DNA of 64,000 nt, taken from an uncultured Rhizobiaceae group bacterium (GTDB lineage Bacteria; Pseudomonadota; Alphaproteobacteria; Rhizobiales; Rhizobiaceae). A program made the position numbers and the translations under genes. Shown here piece by piece: positions 36,386 through 48,775 of this stretch (position 1 is the first letter of the stretch; the number at the start of each line of letters is the position of its first letter). Location of the stretch: the NCBI GenBank assembly GCA_947501445.1, contig CANMVS010000018.1, positions 1 through 64,000 on the forward strand, given 5' to 3'. Under the pieces are notes generated by a model, which was not told the DNA's origin, made no database searches, and saw only the letters and a list, made by a program, of their open reading frames with translations.

Positions 36386-38761
36386 TCACAATCTGGTGTT
36401 ACGCAAACGCAATGCATTACTGATGACTGAGACCGATGACAGGCTCATGGCCGCAGCAGCAATCATTGGTGACAACAGGCTGCCGGTTACCGGATATAAA
36501 ATGCCGGCAGCTATGGGGATGCCAGCCGTATTATAGGCAAAGGCAAAAAACAGGTTCTGCCTGATATTTCTGATGGTTTTTTGTGCCAGCGTACGGGCGC
36601 GCACGATGCCATTCAGATCTCCCTTGACCAGGGTTATGCCAGCACTTTCAACCGCAACATCAGCGCCGGTTCCCATGGCGATACCGACATCAGCCGTGGC
36701 GAGTGCCGGGGCATCGTTGACGCCATCACCTGCCATGACAATTTGCCTGCCTTGAGCGCGCAGTTCTTCGATCAGTGATTTCTTGTCTTGCGGCAACACA
36801 TCGGCGCGCACTTCATCAATGCCAAGCCGGTTTGCGACAGAGGTTGCGGCGCGGTGATTATCACCGGTTGCCATGATGACCTTCAAGCCTGCTGCGTGAA
36901 GTGCATCGATGGCTTGTCTGGTTGTTGCCTTAATCGGATCGGCAACGGCAACGACACCCGCCAATGCACCGTCAATGGCGACAAAAACTGAAGTCTTTCC
37001 GCTGTCACTGGCGTTGTCCGCCTGCGGTTCGAGGGCTGAGACATCAATAGCCAGAAGCGCCATCATCGCACGATTGCCGAGCACCACAGCCTTTTTGTCA
37101 ATGACACCCGAAACACCTTTACCGGTTTCGGAGGTAAATTTGGTTACCGGGCTCAGCGTCAAGCCGCGCTGTTCAGCATTGTTGACAATGGCCTCCGCCA
37201 GCGGGTGCTCTGAGCCCCGCTCCAGTGAAGCGGCCATGGCCAAAACATCGCCCTCTTCAATGGATCCGGTTGTAAAGACGTCACTGACGCCGGGTTTGCC
37301 CTCAGTCAGGGTTCCGGTCTTGTCCACCACCAGAGTGTCAACCGATGCCAATCGTTCCAGCGCCTCTGCTTCACGGATCAAAACACCCGCCCGCGCACCC
37401 CGCCCGGTCGCCGTCATGATTGACATGGGTGTTGCAAGACCCAGTGCGCAGGGGCAGGCGATGATGAGCACCGACACAGCAGAAACAATGGCATAGATCA
37501 ATGCCGGATCGGGGCCCAGAACCATCCAGGCCACGAAGGCTATAATTGCTATAATCACGACCGTTGGAACGAACCATGACGCAACCCGATCCGCCAGACC
37601 CTGTATGGGTGCGCGGGAACGCTGGGCTGCTGCGACCATGGCGACAATCTTTGCCAGCATGGAATCTTCGCCCACATTTGTTGCCTCCATCACGAGACTG
37701 CCGTTCTTGTTGAGCGTACCACCGGTGACATGATCGCCCGGCGTTTTTTCAACGGGAAGCGGTTCGCCGGTGATCATGCTTTCATCAATCGATGATGTGC
37801 CCTCCATAATCACACCATCAACCGGCACACTCTCACCTGGCCGGATGCGCAAATGGTCGCCACCGATAATATTCTCAACAGGCGCATCATATTCGCTGCC
37901 ATCAGCATTGATGCGCCGGGCCATTTTGGGGGCAAGATCAAGCAGGGCCTTGATGGCATCGCCGGTGCGTTCGCGGGCACGCAGTTCCAGCACCTGACCA
38001 ACGAAAACCAGCGCTATGATAACCACCGACGCCTCAAAATAAACCGGTACGTGCCCATCCATTTTCAGGTCCTGCGGGAAAACCCCCGGGATAAAAGTCG
38101 CAATGACGCTGTAAAGATAGGCCGCACCGACGCCCAGCATGATGAGCGTCCACATATTGAAATTTGCAGTTCTGAGTGACGTCCAGCCACGGATGAAAAA
38201 TGGTTGCGCGGCCCAAAGAACGACCGGCGTGGCCAGGATAAATTCAAGATAGAGCGCGGGTTGTTCACCCAGCCAGGCCCGAAATGGCAGACCAATCATG
38301 GCCCCCATCGTCAGCAACAATAATGGAACCGCCGCGATGGCACTGACCCAGAGCCGTTTTGTGAAATCGATCAATTCGTGATTGGGCGCGTCGGAGACAC
38401 CACTCATCGGTTCCAGCGCCATACCACATATCGGACAGGTCCCCGGACCCTCCTGAATGATTTCAGGGTCCATCGGGCACGTGTAGAGCCCGTTTGATAC
38501 AACGGCATCCCTTTTGCTCACGTTTTTGCCCGATAGAAAAAACAGCGGATCGGCAGCAAAGCGGTCATGACATTTTGTACCGCAAAAATGGTAGCTGTCG
38601 TCCTTGTATTCGAAGGATGGCTTGCCGGACCCGGGCACGACTTCCATGCCGCAAACCGGATCGATTACCGCAGCACCGGGCATTGGAGCATCAGCATGGT
38701 GCCCGGAACAATTAGAATGATCCGTGCCCTGAATTGCACTGTTGTGATTTATCTTGTCCAT
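36386..38761 (-). CDS. copA: Copper-translocating P-type ATPase CopA
   Basis: A 791-residue P1B-type ATPase exporting Cu(I) (or Ag(I)) across the inner membrane. In order: a His/Cys-rich N-terminus (DHSNCSGHH), a YHS-type segment (DPVCGMEV...FCGTKC, residues 34-64), a heavy-metal-binding domain ([22 protein letters not shown], 93-114), the TGE actuator motif (331), the membrane CPC site (436-438), the phosphorylated DKTGT (480) and GDGVND (678). It lacks a typical GMxCxxC HMA domain, as in the YHS/HMBD-type transporters. A CueR-type promoter precedes it. It lies upstream of cueR on the same strand of the window but in a separate transcript. Confidence 0.96.
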
Positions 38762-40591: not shown

Positions 40592-41128
40592 ATGACGCAA
40601 AAGCAATCTGCAAATGAAAGCTATTCCCCACTGTCAATTGTCAGCCATTGGCTGGCGGCAATTCTCGTCATCGCACTGTTTTTCACCCACGAAGGCGAGC
40701 GCGGCAGCGCGTCCGCCATTTTTCATGTCAGTGGCGGTGCCATTGCCGGACTGTTTCTTCTGTGGCGTGTATGGCACCGTGTCCGGCGCGGCATGACAGC
40801 AAGTCCGAAACAGGCGGCCGTTTTCAATATTGCCTCAAAAATTGTCATGTGGGGCTTTTTGACAGCCATCGTCGTTGTGGTGCTGACCGGTTATTTCCTG
40901 CCCTGGTCGCGTGGTGCACCGCTGGACATGTTTGGACTGTTTTCCATACCCTCCCCGATGGGTGCCAATCGTCCATTTCATGAATTTGTCGAGGAGGTGC
41001 ATGATATCGCGGGGCACCTGTTTGTACCACTGCTGGTGCTGCATATCCTTGGTGCCGCCAAACATGCATTCATCAACAGGGACGGGATTGCCAGCCGCAT
41101 GTTCAGGCCGCAAAGGGGTGGTCTGTAA
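40592..41128 (+). CDS. Cytochrome b561 family protein
   Basis: A 178-residue four-helix membrane protein of the bacterial cytochrome b561 type, likely a di-haem quinol-linked electron carrier. Haem-ligand histidines are expected in SIVSHWLAAILV (helix 1), in IFHVSGG (helix 2), and in HDIAGHLFVPLLVLHILGAAKHAF (helix 4). The LTGYFLPW segment is typical. It has no clear ribosome-binding site. It is convergent with the antiporter/Rieske operon. Confidence 0.9.
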   Translation: MTQKQSANESYSPLSIVSHWLAAILVIALFFTHEGERGSASAIFHVSGGAIAGLFLLWRVWHRVRRGMTASPKQAAVFNIASKIVMWGFLTAIVVVVLTGYFLPWSRGAPLDMFGLFSIPSPMGANRPFHEFVEEVHDIAGHLFVPLLVLHILGAAKHAFINRDGIASRMFRPQRGGL

Positions 41129-41141
41129 TACAATCCAGCAG

Positions 41142-41896
41142 CTAGAGAACCAGACTTTGATGTACATCATCATGGGCGCATATAATCAATCTGTCTCCCG
41201 ATCGGACACAATTTACCGTTGATTGGGTCTGTGTTGATCCAACCGGACGCACAGCCAGCAAAATGGCTCCCTTAAGTTCAAAATCTGCCGGCAGACGCTC
41301 GGCGGTACCATGATATTCATGCTCTGCAATACTCAGGTTGTTGCCGAGCTGCAGCAAGCGGTGAAAACCACCGGTGCCAAGTCCTGTCGTGCGGATTAAA
41401 ATGCGACCAATCAGTGCACACATGAACCGATCAAGGCTCTGGTTCGTTAGACCGTTTCACGTTTTGTCAGAAACGGGACAACGGTGTCGGCCTTTGATTT
41501 TGTTGATGCATTCAGGTTTTGCCGATTCCGTCAAAACATGAATTGCTCCAGCACAAGAAAGGTCAGACCGATGGCGATGATCAATACAATTGCCTGCATT
41601 GCGATACTGCCATCGCTGGAATCGGCATTGACCAAGGCAACGATGAATGTCGATGCAATTGAAACGAGGCCCAGATTGCCCAGAACCATCAGCGTCACGA
41701 CAATGCGGCGGCGAATTGGATAATTGACAATCATTTCCGCCTCGCCGGTGGTGAACCCGGTTCCCGTCAGCGCTGATACGCACTGAAATCGTGCAACCGT
41801 ATCCGGCAGTCCTGTCAACCGCATCGCCACGGCGGCAATGCGCGCACAGGAAACCGACAGGGCCAGCAGCAGGGCAATGGTCAGTGCAGCACCCAT
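41142..41896 (-). pseudogene. TrkA_C-type membrane protein, split by repeat insertion
   Basis: The 5' part (from ATG 41896) encodes membrane helices and the conserved stretch RLTGLPDTVARFQCVSALTGTGFTTGEAE...RRRIVVTLMVLGNLGLVS. It stops inside the repeat at 41531. After the repeat, another frame continues with NQSLDRFMCALIGRILIRTTGLGTGG and a TrkA_C-like domain (GAILLAVRPVGS...SGDRLIICA). Joined, the two give one protein of about 225 residues, as in proteins with an N-terminal membrane part and a C-terminal TrkA_C domain. The 103-bp copy 7 sits exactly at the junction and shifts the frame. It is the last gene of the operon, eight bases after the unknown gene. Confidence 0.8.
41447..41549 (-). 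repeat. Dispersed 103-bp repeat, copy 7, inside a gene
   Basis: A full-length, well-conserved copy in reverse orientation: TTAGACCGTTTCACG at the left, AATTGCTCC at the right. It interrupts the TrkA_C-type gene. This defines both ends of the element, since the two gene halves flank it directly. No target duplication longer than about two bases is evident. Confidence 0.92.
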
Positions 41897-41904
41897 ATCA
41901 GTCT

Positions 41905-42765
41905 CTATTCACCCGCCGGGCCGAGCAATTCACGGCCAATCTGAAAGGCCTGTTCAATGAATTGCTGCAACCCGCCATCCATATCGTCAACGCTCAAAAG
42001 AGCAGATGCCGTGGCAATAGCGCCCACGAACCCGGCCGTGTGCCAATGACCATGCACAGGTGGCTGCGGCAGACTGGCAGCATCCAGATGCGGCCAGGGG
42101 TTCACGTAGAAATAGGGTTCAGCGTAGGCCTTGTCTCCCGGTGACATGCCAATCCCGATACCGGGCGCGTCATGACCACCGGACGTGTCCAATGAAACGT
42201 AGGTTGCCATATCAAAATGGTGCGGCCAGCAGGTGACCGCACTCGGGCCCGGCGTAATATCAGCATGCAGCGCGGCAAATTTTTGCAACTGACGATCCGC
42301 AAGCGCAAACCAGCTTTCAAGTGTCTTGAGCGCCCGGTCCAGTGATGCTGTGTCAAACTGGCTGATTCCCGATACATCGGCCGGCAGCTTGAACGGATGC
42401 CTGACACCCGAGACCGGTTGAAGACCTGATGTTTCCAACAGCGCATCAAGCCAGGTCAAACAGTCAGCAACGACAATCGTGTCAAGATTGAGCGTATCAA
42501 CGACATGATCATCATTGGTCACCCGCATGGTCAGCGGGGTGAGTGACACGCCAATGCGTATTTGACCATCAAGCCCACTGATGGGTTTGGTTTGAAAGAC
42601 CCGTGCCCCGGCATCCCAATCAAGGCTGGTGTGGCTGTAATCGGGTTTTGGCTTCAGATTTGCTAGCGCAGCCAGCGCTGCAATCTGAACGGCATTGTGG
42701 ACCATGACGCGCGCCTGCAGGAGACAATCGGGGGCGACAGCATCCGGTTCGTTCAAATAGGACAT
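41905..42765 (-). CDS. Conserved hypothetical protein in the Rieske operon
   Basis: A 286-residue soluble protein not assigned to a family. It has a Trp/His-rich middle (PSAVTCWPHHFDMATYVSL), a Gly- and Pro-rich PGIGIGMSPGDKAYAEPYFYVNPWPH, and HGHWHTAGFVGAIATASALL, and an N-terminal GLDGQIRIGVSLTPLTMRV. The PHHFD and YFYVNPWPH elements recall DUF5996-type proteins, but the match is too weak to name. It lies 35 bases after the Rieske-ThDP gene and eight before the broken TrkA_C gene, so it is part of that operon. Confidence 0.75.
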   Translation of the reverse strand: MSYLNEPDAVAPDCLLQARVMVHNAVQIAALAALANLKPKPDYSHTSLDWDAGARVFQTKPISGLDGQIRIGVSLTPLTMRVTNDDHVVDTLNLDTIVVADCLTWLDALLETSGLQPVSGVRHPFKLPADVSGISQFDTASLDRALKTLESWFALADRQLQKFAALHADITPGPSAVTCWPHHFDMATYVSLDTSGGHDAPGIGIGMSPGDKAYAEPYFYVNPWPHLDAASLPQPPVHGHWHTAGFVGAIATASALLSVDDMDGGLQQFIEQAFQIGRELLGPAGE

Positions 42766-42800
42766 AAGATAACTCCGGTATTAATGTGAATGGGACGGGC

Positions 42801-44777
42801 TTAGACGAGCTCGGCATCGGTGATGATCTCAACCAGTGAAGGGCCCTCGTGCGCTATGGCCTCGTTCAGTGCTGCTTCGATTTCACTTGCCTTGGTAATC
42901 CGGGTGCCCTGCCCACCACACAGGCGTGCAAAGGCCGCAAACGAAGGATTGACCAACCGGGTTTCCCACACGGGCCATTGTCCGGCCTGCTGTTCTTTGG
43001 AAATTTTGCCCAACTGGCTGTTGTTGAGCAGAACGTGGGTAATATTCATGCCGTATTTGACCGCCGTGGTAAATTCCATGGCATATTGACCAAAGCCACC
43101 ATCGCCCGAGATGGATATGATCTTGAGGCCGTTGTACTCCTCCAGATCCCGGGTTGCCGCCCAGGCCCCCATGGCAGCAGGAAATCCAAAGCCGATTGAT
43201 CCCAGATAACCTGACATCAATACCCGCTGGCCCTTGCTCTCAAAATAGCGACCAAATGAATAGGTATTGTTGCCGACATCAACGGCAATGATCGCGTCCG
43301 CCGGGCAGGCCCGTGACAACGCATCAAAGACCGCGAAGGAATGCACACCCTGGCCTTTCTCCTCAGCCAGGCGGGTCTGTTTTTCGGCACGCCAAATTTG
43401 CCAGCGATCAGCCAGTTCGCTGACCTGATCTGGCGCGTCGTCCGGTTTTAAGACACCGTCCTGCATGATCTGACAGAACGCACCGATATCACCCCATATG
43501 GGCAGCGCCACACGATGAAACTTGCCCAGCTGCATTCGTTCGTGATCCACCTGCAGTATACGCTTTGATGGTTCAATGCCGGTGTGATTGGAAAACGATG
43601 TCCCAAGCGTGATGATCAGATCCGCTCCGGCAACAAACCAGCTTGCAATGGGCGTGCCGGAACGGCCAAGAACCCCTGCAGCATTGGGATGTGTGTCAGC
43701 AATCAAGCCCTTGCCCTTGAAGGTCGTCAGAACCGGTGCTCCCAGTTTTTCAGCAAGACGGATGACAGCCTGACGGGATCGCACCGCGCCATGGCCGATG
43801 ACTATAATCGGGCGTTTGGCACTGTTGATCATTTGTGTCGCGGCTTCAATGTCGGCGTCGGACGGTTTTATGGCCGTATCGCCCATGCGCCCCGTTGGCC
43901 CGCGCGCCTTGGCCTTGCTGGGTTGCGTTTGCACATCATCGGGAAAAATCAGATGGGCAACATCGCTTTCCACCAGCGCATTCTTGCAGGCAAGTGACAT
44001 CAGCTCCGTATGTTTGGAGGTGCTGAGAACAGGTTGCGAAAACCGCGACACCGCTTCGAAGGCGGACTTCAGATCAATATCCTGAAAGGCACCCGGGCCA
44101 AAGACCTGTGTCTGCACTTGCCCAGTCAGTGCCAATACCGGTGCCCGATCAACTTTGGCATCCCACATGCCGGTCATCAGATTGGTGGCACCAGGGCCGG
44201 CAATCGTCAGGCAGGCTGCCGGTCTGCCGGTTAATTTGCCATAGGCAGAGGCCGCAAAGGCAGCCGCGCCCTCATGGCGTATGCCATAATAGTGTAATTT
44301 GCCGTCCTGCGCGGCCAAACGAATTGCATCGCTCAGCCCCAGGTTGGAATGGCCCACCATGCCAAAAACCGTGCCGACACCCCAGTTGACCATGGTTTCA
44401 ACCATTGCGTCGGTGACAGTGCGTGTGCGCTCCGGTTCAGGTTCAAGCCCGATCAGGATCTCTCCTTCGCGGATTTCGACCGGGTAAAGCTTTTGTCCGG
44501 TATCCTTGTGCCCGCCGGGAGGTGCACCGGTAAGCGGATCAAAATCCCAGCCATGCCACGGGCAGCGAATCCAGCATTGGCCTTCAACACCGCGTTCAAT
44601 GGACCCCTCGCCCAGCGGGCCACCCTGATGGGGACAATGGTTGTCCATGGCTGCCCAGTGGCCATCAAAATGGGAAAGGCAAATTGAAACGTTGCGGGCA
44701 GTCACCGTTTTAACCCGACCATCGGGCAAATCGGCGACATTGCCAACACCAACCCATTGCAGATTTTTATCGCTCAT
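42801..44777 (-). CDS. Rieske domain fused to ThDP-dependent enzyme
   Basis: A 658-residue fusion. Residues 1-112 are a Rieske [2Fe-2S] domain with CPH at 48-50 and CPWH at 72-75. The rest is a full thiamine-diphosphate enzyme of the acetolactate-synthase/pyruvate-oxidase type: the PYR-domain glutamate in YYGIRHEGAAAFAASAYGKLTGRPA, a central domain (RPIIVIGHGAVRS), and the Mg-ThDP motif GDGGFGQYAMEF...NN. Rieske-ThDP fusions are unusual. The iron-sulfur module could carry electrons from a ThDP-bound intermediate, as in an oxidative decarboxylase. It begins one base after the glutamate-synthase-like gene stop. Confidence 0.9.
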   Translation of the reverse strand: MSDKNLQWVGVGNVADLPDGRVKTVTARNVSICLSHFDGHWAAMDNHCPHQGGPLGEGSIERGVEGQCWIRCPWHGWDFDPLTGAPPGGHKDTGQKLYPVEIREGEILIGLEPEPERTRTVTDAMVETMVNWGVGTVFGMVGHSNLGLSDAIRLAAQDGKLHYYGIRHEGAAAFAASAYGKLTGRPAACLTIAGPGATNLMTGMWDAKVDRAPVLALTGQVQTQVFGPGAFQDIDLKSAFEAVSRFSQPVLSTSKHTELMSLACKNALVESDVAHLIFPDDVQTQPSKAKARGPTGRMGDTAIKPSDADIEAATQMINSAKRPIIVIGHGAVRSRQAVIRLAEKLGAPVLTTFKGKGLIADTHPNAAGVLGRSGTPIASWFVAGADLIITLGTSFSNHTGIEPSKRILQVDHERMQLGKFHRVALPIWGDIGAFCQIMQDGVLKPDDAPDQVSELADRWQIWRAEKQTRLAEEKGQGVHSFAVFDALSRACPADAIIAVDVGNNTYSFGRYFESKGQRVLMSGYLGSIGFGFPAAMGAWAATRDLEEYNGLKIISISGDGGFGQYAMEFTTAVKYGMNITHVLLNNSQLGKISKEQQAGQWPVWETRLVNPSFAAFARLCGGQGTRITKASEIEAALNEAIAHEGPSLVEIITDAELV

Positions 44778-44778
44778 T

Positions 44779-46400
44779 TCACATTTCCTCCTGAGTCAAG
44801 CCGCCATAGGCAACACCTGAAAGGGACGCCATTTCCTGTTTCCAGGTTGTCAGATCATCCGGATTGAAATTGGACAGGTGGCTGTGACCACAGGCTCTGG
44901 CCATGACCTGCATGAGTTCCACCGAGGCTTCAAAAAAATTACTCAGCCGCCGAGCCGATTTTTCAATCACCAGCCGACTGACCAAATGGGGTTTTTGCGT
45001 TGCAATGCCCACCGGACAATTATTAGTGTGGCAGGCCCGCATGGCGATACAGCCGATGGCCTGCATGGCCGCATTTGAAACGGCAATGGCATCAGCACCC
45101 AGCGCCATGGCCTTGATGAAATCTGCCGGTTTTCTCAATCCCCCGGTAATGACCAGCGACACATCGCTGCGCCCGCGCCGGTCAAGATGTCGCCTTGCAC
45201 GTGCCAAAGCCGGTATGGTCGGCACAGAGATGTTATCGCGGAATATGAGCGGCGCTGCTCCGGTACCGCCTCCGCGCCCGTCAAGGATGATATAATCCAC
45301 ACCGACATCCAAGGCAGCGTCGATATCCTTCTCAATATGCTGGGCTGACAATTTGTAGCCGATGGGAATACCGCCGGTGCGATCACGCACCTCATCGGCG
45401 AATTGTTTTATGTCGCTCACACGGTCCCAATCGGGAAACCGCGGTGGCGAAATGGCCGCTTCACCCTCTTTCAAGCCGCGCACAGCAGCAATTTTGCCTT
45501 TGACCTTTGGCCCAGGCAAGTGGCCGCCCGTACCGGTTTTAGCACCCTGACCGCCCTTGAAATGGAAGGCCTGAACCCGATCGAGCTTGTCCCAGTCAAA
45601 TCCAAAACGACCTGAGGCCAATTCATAAAAATAGCGGGTGTTTTCTGCCTGCTCCTCCGGCAACATACCGCCCTCGCCCGAACAAATGCCGGTTCCGGCC
45701 AGTTCCGCTCCGCGCGCCAGAGCAATTTTCGCGGGTTCTGAAAGCGCACCAAAACTCATATCTGACACAAAGAGTGGAATTTTCAGCTTCAGTGGTTTTT
45801 GGGCATTTGGGCCGATAACAATGTCGGTTCCAACCGGCTCATCATCGAGCATTGGCATGCGATGCAGTTGCGCCGTCAAAAGTTGAATATCATCCCAATC
45901 GGGCAGTTGCGCCCGAGGCACCCCCATGGATTCGACCAGACCGTGATGACCCGTTTTGGACAGACCGTCACGCGCATAGCGCTGGATCAATGCATTATTG
46001 GGTTCTTCCTCGGTGCCATGCCCCGTGTCGGCATAGGTGCCCAGATAGGCCTTGCGGTTAAACGGCTGCGGGTTTTCAAGGGTCCATGTGACAATCTCAT
46101 CTTCATCAACCAGCACCTTACCCGCCTCAATCCAACTGGAAAATTTCGGCAACCCCTCCTCATTGTTGTACTGAGAGACACCTGAATCGAGCCGATAATC
46201 CCAATAGTGGACGCCGCAAATCAGGCTTTTTCCACGCACGAAACCATCCGCCATCAGGGCGCCGCGATGCAGGCAACGACCGTAGAAGACCGAACATCGT
46301 CATCAAAGCGTACAATGACCAGATCAACCTCGCCTACAAGCGCATGTCTGGGTTTTCGATCCGCAAGGTCAGCGAATTCGGCAATGGCAATTTTTTTCAT
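44779..46400 (-). pseudogene. Rieske plus FMN glutamate-synthase-like protein, frameshifted
   Basis: The main frame from ATG 46254 gives 491 residues of a glutamate-synthase (GltS FMN-barrel) relative: SDMSFGALSEPAKIALARGAELAG, GGRGGGTGAAPLIF, and the 3Fe-4S-type CIAMRACHTNNCPVGIATQ. Reading back, an N-terminal Rieske domain starts at ATG 46400 (MKKIAIAEFADLADRKPRHALVGEVDLVIV) but its frame breaks near 46288-46300: RCLHRGAL and CGVHYWDYR, the two cluster ligands, are in frame with the main part only. One missing base (as from GTTTCGG to GTTCGG) explains it. ATG 46400 overlaps the antiporter stop (ATGA). Sequencing error, a true null or recoding are open. Confidence 0.8.
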
Positions 46401-47680
46401 TTCACGTTCCCAATGTCTTTGTTGTCATAATGGCTGTGTTTCAACGGTTTGGCAGAACCATCAATGGGTTTCACCTCGGCGCAATCGCCCATTTTCTCCA
46501 CCTGTCTTGCGTACCATCGCGCGCCCGGCGCGGCGCTCAGCCCATGCAGCACAGCGCTGATCCACACCGCATTGACCGCCAGCAGAACAATGGGCTCGGC
46601 AAATGAATGATCGATTGTGGATACGACAAGCAGGGCAAATAATGCGGTGGCCAATCCTCGCGGGCCGAACCAGCCGAAAAACAGCCGGGTCACACCAGAG
46701 GCGTCAGTGCCTGTAAGGGCAATCCAGATGGAAAGTGGCCGCACAACGAAAAGGCTGATGAGTATGATGGCCAATGTCGAACCATCAAGGTGGTTGATCG
46801 CCTGCGGTAACAGGGCAAGACCCAGTAGGAAAAAAGCGCCCCAGGTCAGCATTTGACCCTCGCTTTCGGTAAATTCGTAAACGAATTTGCAGCGCCCCTT
46901 CACAACGTGACCAAAACACAGTCCGGCAACAAAAGCAGAGATAAAACCATTACCGCCCACCTGTGTTGCGGCAAGATATGCAGCACCTGCCAGTGCAATG
47001 GCACCGACACCCTCATAGGGTTCAGACGTGGATTTTCTGTTCTTCGCCCAGATGAGGATTGTGCCACCTGCAAGACCGGCAACGATGCCGACCAGGGGCC
47101 CAAGGATCAGTTGTTTGGCACCAAAGACGAGCCAGTCCACATTGCTCTTGTCCGTTTCATTGGCCACCAGACTGGCAAACAACAAAACGACAGGCAGTGC
47201 CAGGCCATCATTGAGCCCGCTCTCAACCGTCAGGGCTCGCCTTGTGCGCTCAGGAACGATTTTGTTGGTAACAACAGCCTGCCCCAGGGCAGCATCTGTG
47301 GGCGCCAGTATTGCAGCCACAAGTGCCACCGCCAATATAGGCCAGCCGGGAAGAAACGGCATAGCCGCCAAAGTCCCAAACAGCAGCGACAACGGCAATC
47401 CAATCAGCAACATGCGCACCGGCCAGACATGCCGTTTGCGCAATACGCCCATATCAATCTGAGCTGCGTCAAGAAAGAGCAGTACAATGAGCGCAATTTC
47501 CGCCACGAGATGCAGGCTCGTTTCCGCACCCTCCTGTGACATGATACCTGTTTGAGACAGCAAATACCCAAATCCGATAAACAGCATCGGTGCCGTGAGC
47601 ATCGTGGTGCTCATACGGTTGGCCACCATCGAAAAGGCAACGGTGAAAAGCGCCAGTAACAACAACCCTGTCATGCCCAT
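46397..47680 (-). CDS. Cation:proton antiporter (CPA1/NhaP-like)
   Basis: A 427-residue inner-membrane protein with about twelve to thirteen hydrophobic segments of the monovalent cation/proton antiporter family. The segment AILAPTDAALGQAVVTNKIVPERTRRALTVESGLNDGLALPVVLLF carries the family's conserved ND pair. The last 40 residues are cytoplasmic. The stop codon overlaps the start of the glutamate-synthase-like gene (ATGA), so this is the first gene of the operon that carries the two Rieske enzymes. It diverges from the ECF sigma gene. Confidence 0.9.
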   Translation of the reverse strand: MGMTGLLLLALFTVAFSMVANRMSTTMLTAPMLFIGFGYLLSQTGIMSQEGAETSLHLVAEIALIVLLFLDAAQIDMGVLRKRHVWPVRMLLIGLPLSLLFGTLAAMPFLPGWPILAVALVAAILAPTDAALGQAVVTNKIVPERTRRALTVESGLNDGLALPVVLLFASLVANETDKSNVDWLVFGAKQLILGPLVGIVAGLAGGTILIWAKNRKSTSEPYEGVGAIALAGAAYLAATQVGGNGFISAFVAGLCFGHVVKGRCKFVYEFTESEGQMLTWGAFFLLGLALLPQAINHLDGSTLAIILISLFVVRPLSIWIALTGTDASGVTRLFFGWFGPRGLATALFALLVVSTIDHSFAEPIVLLAVNAVWISAVLHGLSAAPGARWYARQVEKMGDCAEVKPIDGSAKPLKHSHYDNKDIGNVK

Positions 47681-47835
47681 TCACCCGCCCCGATTTTGAC
47701 TGTTGAACGGCCCACACAACAACATGACCGCCCTGCTTACAGGTTGTCAGATGCCAAGGGCATGAATAAGGTTACAGTATTGAGGGAGATTTTGATAATC
47801 AGCGTCCTATCCCGATTGAGTACCAATGTATCATG

Positions 47836-47900: not shown

Positions 47901-48479
47901 TTGGATGATCTGCTGACAGCCCTGCAAAACGGCGATGGCGAACGCACACAATCCTTTGTGCGTGAACATATCGGCTGGATGCTGGCCGTTTCAAATCGGA
48001 TCATGCGGGATCCTCATCATGGTGAGGATGCGGTGCAAAATGCATTCGCAAAGATCTTCGACAAGATTGGTCAATTCAAAGGCGATGCGGCCATCAAAAC
48101 CTGGATGCACAGAATTGTCGTCAATGAATGCCTGATGCTGATGCGTAAACTGAGACGGACGCAAACTGTCATGGTTGACGATCTTCAACCAATGTACGAC
48201 AAAAATGGTTGTCGTATTGAAGAACCGTGGGTGACCATGGAAACACCCGAATCCCTGGCGTTGCAGTCGGATACCAGGGCGCAGGTGAACAAAAAGATTA
48301 TGCAACTGCCGGACAATTATCGTATCGTTCTGGTGCTGCGCGACATCGAAGAACTGACAACGCTGGAGGTTGCAGAAATGCTCCAGGTGAGCGAAGCCAA
48401 TGTGAAAGTGCGGCTGCATCGCGCTCGGGCAGCGCTTAAAAAACTGCTGGAACCCTTGATGCGGGGGCTGCCGGAATGA
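47901..48479 (+). CDS. ECF RNA polymerase sigma factor
   Basis: A 192-residue extracytoplasmic-function sigma factor. Region 2 is at residues about 22-85 (HHGEDAVQNAFAKIFDKIGQFKGDAAIKTWMHRIVVNECLMLMRK), and region 4 at 125-180 (LPDNYRIVLVLRDIEELTTLEVAEMLQVSEANVKVRLHRARAALKKLL). No in-frame ATG fits the N-terminus, so the start is TTG 47901, preceded by CCGGGG. Its TGA overlaps the anti-sigma ATG. It diverges from the antiporter/Rieske operon, which may be its target. Confidence 0.92.
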   Translation: MDDLLTALQNGDGERTQSFVREHIGWMLAVSNRIMRDPHHGEDAVQNAFAKIFDKIGQFKGDAAIKTWMHRIVVNECLMLMRKLRRTQTVMVDDLQPMYDKNGCRIEEPWVTMETPESLALQSDTRAQVNKKIMQLPDNYRIVLVLRDIEELTTLEVAEMLQVSEANVKVRLHRARAALKKLLEPLMRGLPE

Positions 48480-48775
48480 GTGCACAACGCCCAAGGCTCC
48501 TGCGCCGCATCCAGGGATTGATGTTCAAACTCCCATTGATGATAAGCTGCGAGGATTTCGAGGATTTCATCCTTGATTATCTGGATGGTACCTTGCCGTC
48601 GCGACAAAAATTCATATTCGAGATGCATATGAAACTGTGTCGGGAATGCCGGGAGTATCTCGAGGCGTATCGAACCTCATTGGAACTGGCCAAATCAACC
48701 GCACAGGAAGAAGCGCCAAAACAGCCGGTGCCTGAAGATCTGATCGCGGCCGTGCTTGCAGCACGCAAGGGGTGA
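48476..48775 (+). CDS. Anti-sigma factor with zinc-finger (zf-HC2-like)
   Basis: A 99-residue cytoplasmic protein. The motif HMKLCRECREYL near residues 53-64 is the HxxxCxxC of zinc-binding anti-sigma (ASD/ZAS) proteins, preceded by the ILDYLDGTLPSRQKFIFE helix. There is no membrane segment, so it is a soluble type, possibly responding to redox. The start overlaps the sigma stop by four bases (ATGA), as expected for a sigma/anti-sigma pair. Confidence 0.88.
   Translation: MSAQRPRLLRRIQGLMFKLPLMISCEDFEDFILDYLDGTLPSRQKFIFEMHMKLCRECREYLEAYRTSLELAKSTAQEEAPKQPVPEDLIAAVLAARKG

Follow-up and report, generated by a model that had tools for sequence, protein, structure and literature searches.

A five-gene operon on the minus strand of a 64,000-nucleotide stretch of DNA (hereafter the window; contig CANMVS010000018.1, assembly GCA_947501445.1) from an uncultured Rhizobiaceae group bacterium encodes two enzymes that, in their intact form, each carry an N-terminal Rieske domain. 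One is a thiamine diphosphate (ThDP) enzyme, here called Rieske-ThDP, and the other, Rieske-GltS, joins the Rieske domain to a flavin mononucleotide (FMN) and 3Fe-4S core of the glutamate synthase type. They belong to a gene set, apparently undescribed, that recurs in marine bacteria and salt-loving archaea; among the open-access papers listed by literature searches, none describes a system of this make-up. A redox role, as put forward in the original prediction from this DNA, is well supported by the domains, and for the module it is very likely because of its domain content and the conservation of its cluster ligands. Beyond this, the locus is tentatively read as one version of a stress-induced, Rieske-wired redox module in which the Rieske domains would act as one-electron ports.

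The Rieske ligands of Rieske-ThDP appear in the window as CPH ... CPWH, and the pattern CPH-x21-CPWH is kept in all 83 copies that lie above the score thresholds. The Rieske ligand pairs of Rieske-GltS, along with its 3Fe-4S motif C-x5-C-x4-C, are likewise present in 56 of 56 such copies in relatives. Scanning GTDB genomes for relatives of Rieske-ThDP yielded 247 coding stretches, and in the best 80 loci partners were counted by profile searches above set thresholds. When the search for conserved neighbourhoods proposed with the original prediction was run on these 80 loci, Rieske-GltS was found in 56, a membrane Rieske protein in 55, a protein termed P250 in 55 and the antiporter in 33; a DUF5996 gene (7 loci), genes for an extracytoplasmic function (ECF) sigma factor and its anti-sigma factor (6 each) and a TrkA_C-like protein (5) are much rarer. 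The Rieske-GltS count includes a distant copy (L066, 36% identity) and three that are truncated at the end of a contig (L033, L087 and L091). If only loci of 15.5 kb or more are counted, 64 in all, Rieske-GltS is in 46, the membrane Rieske protein in 48, P250 in 48 and the antiporter in 31. Content, order and orientation vary, with 22 arrangements among the 80 loci, some of them cut by contig ends.

The association also holds in genome samples. Among 289 genomes of the class, Rieske-ThDP is carried by 13, Rieske-GltS by 8 and the membrane Rieske protein by 14, and the three pairs overlap in 7, 6 and 6 genomes (P 4e-10, 6e-6 and 1e-7); thinning to one genome per genus and leaving out the window strain's own genome gives P 4e-6, 3e-4 and 9e-6, values to be read with the genomes not being independent. 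Among 397 genomes of the order, 33 carry Rieske-GltS, 29 carry Rieske-ThDP and 19 carry both (P 9e-17), with 14 shared genera when counted by genus (P 1e-9). Co-occurrence persists when the genes lie apart, on three contigs in G183 and 18-47 kb from one another in G069 and G203; in G287 the module genes are on different contigs and may or may not be linked. Plasmids extend the distribution to haloarchaea. Rieske-ThDP is encoded in 5 of 72,556 plasmid records, from four haloarchaea and one Mycobacteroides, and all three plasmids with a near full-length Rieske-GltS, each haloarchaeal, also carry Rieske-ThDP, with the Rieske domain confirmed by Pfam in two. On the Halorubrum plasmid some 17 kb separate the two genes. 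On that of Halorarius, a Na/H antiporter gene starts 43 bases after Rieske-ThDP and adjoins an ion-channel gene, and Rieske-GltS follows 4 kb further on; on the Mycobacteroides plasmid Rieske-ThDP has an FMN reductase about 2 kb away and an antiporter about 3 kb away. No antiporter is among the genes listed near Rieske-ThDP on the Haloferax, Halorubrum and Salinirubellus plasmids.

As sequenced, the window has two of the five genes interrupted, as might be expected of a chance grouping of genes in one genome, an outcome that the original prediction tied to scattered genes or missing cluster ligands in relatives. What was found instead is an association kept across many families, through rearrangements and on haloarchaeal plasmids, with the ligands invariant in both enzymes. 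Chance grouping is rejected on the co-occurrence in the class and order samples and its probability is practically negligible.

The locus is made up of the following features, in window coordinates.

47901..48479, plus strand: ECF sigma factor gene (Pfam Sigma70_r2/r4_2), divergent from the operon
48476..48775, plus strand: zinc-finger anti-sigma gene (Pfam zf-HC2), with a 4-base overlap with the sigma gene
47750..47776, minus strand: probable ECF promoter, TGTAACC-N16-CATC, 5' of the antiporter gene, assigned from its conservation
46397..47680, minus strand: cation:proton antiporter, CPA1/NhaP2-like (Pfam Na_H_Exchanger, 1.2e-35)
44779..46400, minus strand: Rieske-GltS gene (Rieske plus FMN/3Fe-4S glutamate-synthase core), frameshifted inside the Rieske segment as sequenced
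42801..44777, minus strand: Rieske-ThDP gene, intact (Pfam Rieske, 3.8e-15, plus TPP_enzyme N/M/C)
41905..42765, minus strand: DUF5996 protein, 286 amino acids (PF19459, 1.5e-07)
41142..41896, minus strand: TrkA_C/TrkH-like small membrane protein gene, in pieces 41896-41531 and 41423-41142, intact in relatives L030-L033 and L046
41447..41548, minus strand: repeat element in the membrane-protein gene, with 42 other genomic matches among those listed

The order on the minus strand is therefore antiporter, Rieske-GltS, Rieske-ThDP, DUF5996 protein and small membrane protein, with successive overlaps or gaps of -4, 1, 35 and 8 bases; re-derived coordinates return the spacing and five-gene order originally given. 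The window is part of a 6.82-Mb genome, and the nearest relatives at the locus in the GTDB scan are Hoeflea poritis, Nitratireductor sp. XY-223 and two alphaproteobacterial metagenome-assembled genomes. Pfam bears out the antiporter, GltS core, Rieske and ThDP assignments of the original prediction; TrkA_C was not found.

The original prediction, which had two enzymes with an N-terminal Rieske domain, holds for Rieske-ThDP, whereas the Rieske domain of the GltS protein is split between frames in the window, a frameshift missed when the gene was taken as a single frame. The first frame (46400-46254) carries the start of the Rieske domain and the remainder continues in a different frame, open from about 46299, which has its first start codon at 46254, 3' of the first Cys-His motif; Pfam finds Glu_synthase and the second half of the Rieske domain. 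Alignment with the intact genes of L030-L032 places the loss of one base in the window alone; a programmed frameshift was set aside, the gene of relatives reading in one frame. Outside the lesion, the remaining 500 codons give nonsynonymous divergence (dN) of 0.089-0.101 against synonymous divergence (dS) of 1.9-2.7, the latter near saturation, a constraint comparable to that of the intact Rieske-ThDP gene. This low dN/dS points to a lesion that is either recent or a sequencing error.

A repeat of about 100 bp (approximately 41447-41548), with at least 42 other genomic matches at 86-100% identity, splits the membrane-protein gene. The element was missed in the original call, which runs through it to 41142; it looks like a miniature mobile or REP-like (repetitive extragenic palindromic) element, and for part of its length there are inverted matches as well. 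Rieske-GltS and the TrkA_C-like gene thus both look broken in the window strain. L029, the nearest relative, gave no Rieske-GltS, and of the membrane-protein gene only a short stretch resembling its start was seen there by eye. The intact remainder in the window strain, namely the antiporter, Rieske-ThDP and DUF5996, is the same set that is kept in L029, and this lineage may be losing the other two genes while keeping these three.

The best PDB match of Rieske-ThDP is 3eya, pyruvate dehydrogenase [cytochrome] (1.5e-62). The ThDP N, M and C domains of PoxB (3eya/3ey9) and pyruvate oxidase (1y9d), from E. coli and L. plantarum, respectively, align over residues 119-654 as the best PDB matches, and the catalytic glutamate of the RHE motif in these enzymes is also kept in Rieske-ThDP. 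Neither has the N-terminal Rieske domain. The alignments further show a Lys in Rieske-ThDP against a Phe in both 3eya and 1y9d, and an Asn against their His, both being active-site positions. Both replacements are found in 83 of 83 copies, as is a G-K-x-x-K-E stretch, and the Lys stretch is also present in the four haloarchaeal and one mycobacterial copies, rows which sit on long branches of the Rieske-ThDP tree with their placement unsure. Acetolactate synthase (6lpi) has Asn at the same position as the replaced His. No NCBIfam model reached its cut-off among the 25 best models listed, and the protein is best described as pyruvate-oxidase-like rather than named a pyruvate oxidase. Malic enzyme genes adjoin parts of the module in L083 (14928-16577), L098 (10038-11798) and L121 (2888-4504); with 3 of 112 loci scanned (the 80 plus L111-L142, of which L131-L142 are short pieces of the strain's own genome), they were set aside as a weak, post hoc hint of pyruvate as a substrate.

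Rieske-GltS shares the Glu_synthase domain and the 3Fe-4S motif with the glutamate synthase large subunit (GltB/GltS). At about 540 amino acids it aligns to just one region of that subunit, has the Rieske domain added, and scores 142 bits against the GltB equivalog model, for which the cut-off is 1047. Close relatives can have another module in place of the Rieske domain. Four GltS proteins of the class sample, 69-70% identical, have no N-terminal match to Rieske-GltS, and their N-termini each hold two CDGSH [2Fe-2S] motifs, one case being confirmed by Pfam; a Vibrio plasmid copy likewise has a twin CDGSH start. Twin-CDGSH relatives were noted at L127 (3732-5327), L128 (4108-5640), L129 (3697-5217), L130 (3738-5309) and L151 (4689-6239). 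According to PMC3174974, the type 5 CDGSH iron-sulfur protein is a tandem CDGSH unit fused to a glutamate synthase FMN-binding domain. The twin-CDGSH relatives are of this known form: by match, their GltS core is 57-72% identical to that of Rieske-GltS, and they too have a [2Fe-2S] N-terminal module, with CDGSH where Rieske-GltS has Rieske.

The two forms differ in their company. Among the order genomes, 19 of the 33 with Rieske-GltS also carry Rieske-ThDP, against 1 of the 11 with Rieske-less GltS (Fisher test, 0.006; 0.02 when counted by genus), with the 11 sorted as CDGSH-type by match start alone (127 or later) and G038, in which the GltS match begins at residue 173, excluded from both groups. 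In the class sample the corresponding figures are 0 of 4 genomes for the CDGSH type and 7 of 8 for Rieske-GltS. This contrast indicates that Rieske-ThDP goes with the Rieske end more closely than with the GltS core, and the exchange of Rieske for twin CDGSH in such close proteins makes the N-terminal module look like an interchangeable Fe-S port.

The third Rieske protein, that of the membrane, is a cytochrome-Rieske fusion with a Ferric_reduct domain and a C-terminal Rieske domain by Pfam, examples being found at L044 (10653-11720), L055 (5890-6954) and L083 (11913-12941), usually with P250 next to it. Rieske ligands are present in 66 of 66 copies above the score thresholds. It resembles the heme-b subunit of MsrPQ (YedYZ) in its Ferric_reduct domain and in a weak MsrQ match (24.6 bits against a cut-off of 130), from which it differs by the added C-terminal Rieske domain and by its partner, P250 having no Pfam match. 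P250 has a predicted N-terminal helix that would anchor the protein, and invariant Cys/His positions; its fold gave weak OB-fold-like (oligonucleotide/oligosaccharide-binding) PDB matches only, the best with an E value of 0.016. At L115 (6058-7185), a further Rieske domain is fused to an NADPH-dependent FMN reductase domain beside the membrane Rieske protein gene. The recurrence of three Rieske proteins, the Rieske-specific co-occurrence, the [2Fe-2S] swap and this FMN reductase fusion favour the Rieske domains being electron ports.

The direction in which such ports would run can be turned around. Rieske-GltS could oxidise glutamate or another amino acid and Rieske-ThDP the resulting 2-oxo acid, with electrons leaving via the membrane cytochrome b-Rieske protein to the quinone pool or the periplasm. 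PoxB, which Rieske-ThDP resembles, feeds quinone; the membrane Rieske protein is found in 55 of the 80 loci, and a substrate carrying one more negative charge would be a good fit for the invariant Lys of the ThDP pocket. Glutamate synthases, on the other hand, normally run reductively, and no full membrane Rieske protein was found in the window strain's genome, so that this catabolic arrangement is considered unlikely.

The operon faces a divergent gene pair, the ECF sigma factor and an anti-sigma protein with HxxxCxxC in its translation that is assigned to zf-HC2 and falls below the cut-offs of the NCBIfam anti-sigma, RsrA and ChrR models. Neither this pair, nor the promoter site between it and the operon, nor the third Rieske partner of relatives was part of the operon as originally described. 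An ECF gene also adjoins the antiporter in L029-L032, L156 and L164 and lies near Rieske-ThDP in L077 and L083. In five of five genomes, conservation upstream of the antiporter start is confined to one block, TGTAACC-N16-CATC with its flanks. Searched with a spacer of 14-18 bases, the pattern gives 4 matches in the 80 loci, all at the antiporter upstream position, while in 34 further loci both strict matches are at ECF-antiporter promoters of other families. The window holds this site and one further match, with a 14-base spacer, and a narrower form has 2 matches in the whole genome, one of them at this locus. Looser matches precede Rieske-ThDP in L077 and L083, and the looser pattern is also met away from operon starts (L077 at 11380, L083 at 6209 in reverse and L152 at 5633 in reverse).

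PMC3420878 and PMC3511200 give the promoter of ECF group 16 (SigF/EcfF type) as tGTAACc-N16-CGAA and describe EcfF of Bradyrhizobium, a member of this group, as induced by peroxide and singlet oxygen. The likeness is one of motif, with a near-identical -35 box and the same spacing and with CATC here in place of CGAA at the -10 box; the anti-sigma factor also differs, being a zf-HC2 protein here and the membrane protein NrsF in Caulobacter (PMC3420878, PMC3511200). The divergent ECF gene with its zinc-type anti-sigma partner and the conserved site together suggest stress induction of the operon.

Zinc-thiol anti-sigma factors respond to oxidants, and the pairing of an ECF sigma factor with a zf-HC2 anti-sigma protein hints at oxidant sensing in the system. 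The Rieske domains, the ligands of which sit on N-terminal appendages in both enzymes, might then serve to turn the enzymes on or off, by sensing redox state or oxygen or by docking, and not as catalytic carriers. GltS cores need electron entry, and the twin CDGSH replacement in close GltS relatives speaks for a port more than for a specific sensor, which makes a switching role of this sort improbable.

The common ECF site also lends itself to a different account, in which the enzymes and the antiporter each have a use of their own in oxidative or salt stress and are expressed from one promoter, with no electrons passed between them. Parts of the module do occur separately. The membrane Rieske protein is found without either enzyme in 8 genomes of the class sample, 7 of which have P250 next to it, and loci L111-L114 and L116-L118 are of this kind. 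Rieske-GltS lacks a Rieske-ThDP hit in 14 of its 33 order genomes; of these 14 loci, the antiporter is beside it in 6, the membrane Rieske-P250 set is present in 4, a TrkA_C-like gene is nearby in 3 and the ECF pair in 2, so that at least one partner accompanies it in 10 and none in the retrieved stretch in 4. Set against this, the recurrence of three Rieske-fused partners is hard to explain by co-regulation alone, Rieske-free GltS is found with Rieske-ThDP in just the single case out of 11 and co-occurrence holds where the genes lie apart, as in G183, G069 and G203. Co-regulated but separate functions are possible, if less than likely.

Several observations weigh against the preferred reading of a stress-induced module wired through Rieske ports. 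Rieske-ThDP has no partner above threshold in 11 of the 80 loci, some of which are on short contigs and one of which, L036, holds an antiporter fragment. ECF genes are near just 6 of the 80. Besides the 14 order genomes with Rieske-GltS and no Rieske-ThDP hit, 9 of the 29 with Rieske-ThDP gave no Rieske-GltS hit and 1 (G038) gave a partial one only, from which it follows that neither enzyme strictly needs the other. Pyruvate may not be the substrate of Rieske-ThDP, being doubtful because of the Lys for Phe and Asn for His departures in the ThDP active site, and no full membrane Rieske protein was found in the genome of the window strain, which puts an electron outlet there in doubt.

The antiporter belongs to the Na_H_Exchanger superfamily and reaches 121 bits against the NCBIfam K+/H+ antiporter (NhaP2) equivalog, under the cut-off of 355. 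Its presence beside Rieske-GltS where Rieske-ThDP was not found indicates that the antiporter association belongs to Rieske-GltS itself. The original tie to ion transport stands at the level of gene association only, found in the 33 Rieske-ThDP loci, in 6 of the 14 Rieske-GltS loci from genomes with no Rieske-ThDP hit and on a haloarchaeal plasmid. For the small membrane protein, Pfam did not find TrkA_C either in the window pieces or in the one intact relative examined; PF02080 searched against the genome gave no match at the locus, and neither Pfam nor NCBIfam supplies a name. Its profile matches are weak: hhalign gave a probability of 63% with E 7e-5 in one comparison, and KtrA (E about 0.5), another potassium transport protein (0.09) and TrkH (E 9) were also matched. 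The DUF5996 protein has a conserved WPHHFD motif and a predicted structure with a mean pLDDT (predicted local distance difference test) of 90, for which no PDB fold match better than E 0.07 was found; its gene, seen near Rieske-ThDP in the 7 loci already counted, is near Rieske-GltS in L122, and no paper on DUF5996 was found in the open-access literature.

Two neighbours lie past the far end of the operon: a convergent cytochrome b561-type gene (window 40592-41128), counterparts of which (25-27% identity) are also upstream in L055 and L059, and a gene for a P-type metal ATPase (36386-38761), the N-terminus of which looks YHS-like by eye. Base composition was uninformative as to a genomic island, with a GC content of 0.56 at 42-46 kb inside the window range of 0.49-0.57.

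In the preferred reading, an ECF sigma factor held by the zinc-thiol-type anti-sigma protein would, probably under stress, switch on the antiporter-led operon. The ferredoxin-type Rieske domain at the N-terminus of each intact enzyme would be a built-in one-electron port. Rieske-ThDP would carry out the oxidative decarboxylation of a 2-oxo acid, with the electrons leaving via its Rieske domain; these may pass from Rieske to Rieske into the FMN/3Fe-4S core of Rieske-GltS for the reduction of an imino acid, the simplest product being glutamate from 2-oxoglutarate and ammonia without NADPH. In most of the relatives studied, the membrane cytochrome b-Rieske protein and its membrane-anchored partner would offer an alternative electron outlet, and the antiporter with the K+-type membrane protein may adjust cations and pH as part of that response.

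A bolder version can be proposed because glutamate is a counter-ion of K+ in the salt response and many carriers have marine or saline names. Under oxidative or salt stress, Rieske-ThDP would directly drive Rieske-GltS by Rieske-to-Rieske exchange, making glutamate without NAD(P)H while the antiporter and K+ channel-like protein balance K+ or Na+; the system would be common to marine alphaproteobacteria and haloarchaea by gene transfer, with the cytochrome b-Rieske outlet in most versions. Taken as a whole, this chain of steps is unlikely.

If the preferred reading is true, the Rieske domain would be a general plug that joins unrelated flavin and thiamine enzymes in one electron circuit, a role beyond the bc1 complex and the oxygenases in which it is usually studied. 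Proteins of common marine bacteria and salt-loving archaea that are called simply "thiamine pyrophosphate-binding protein" or "glutamate synthase-related protein" would gain a testable function, and carbon, nitrogen and cation control would be joined in one regulated unit.

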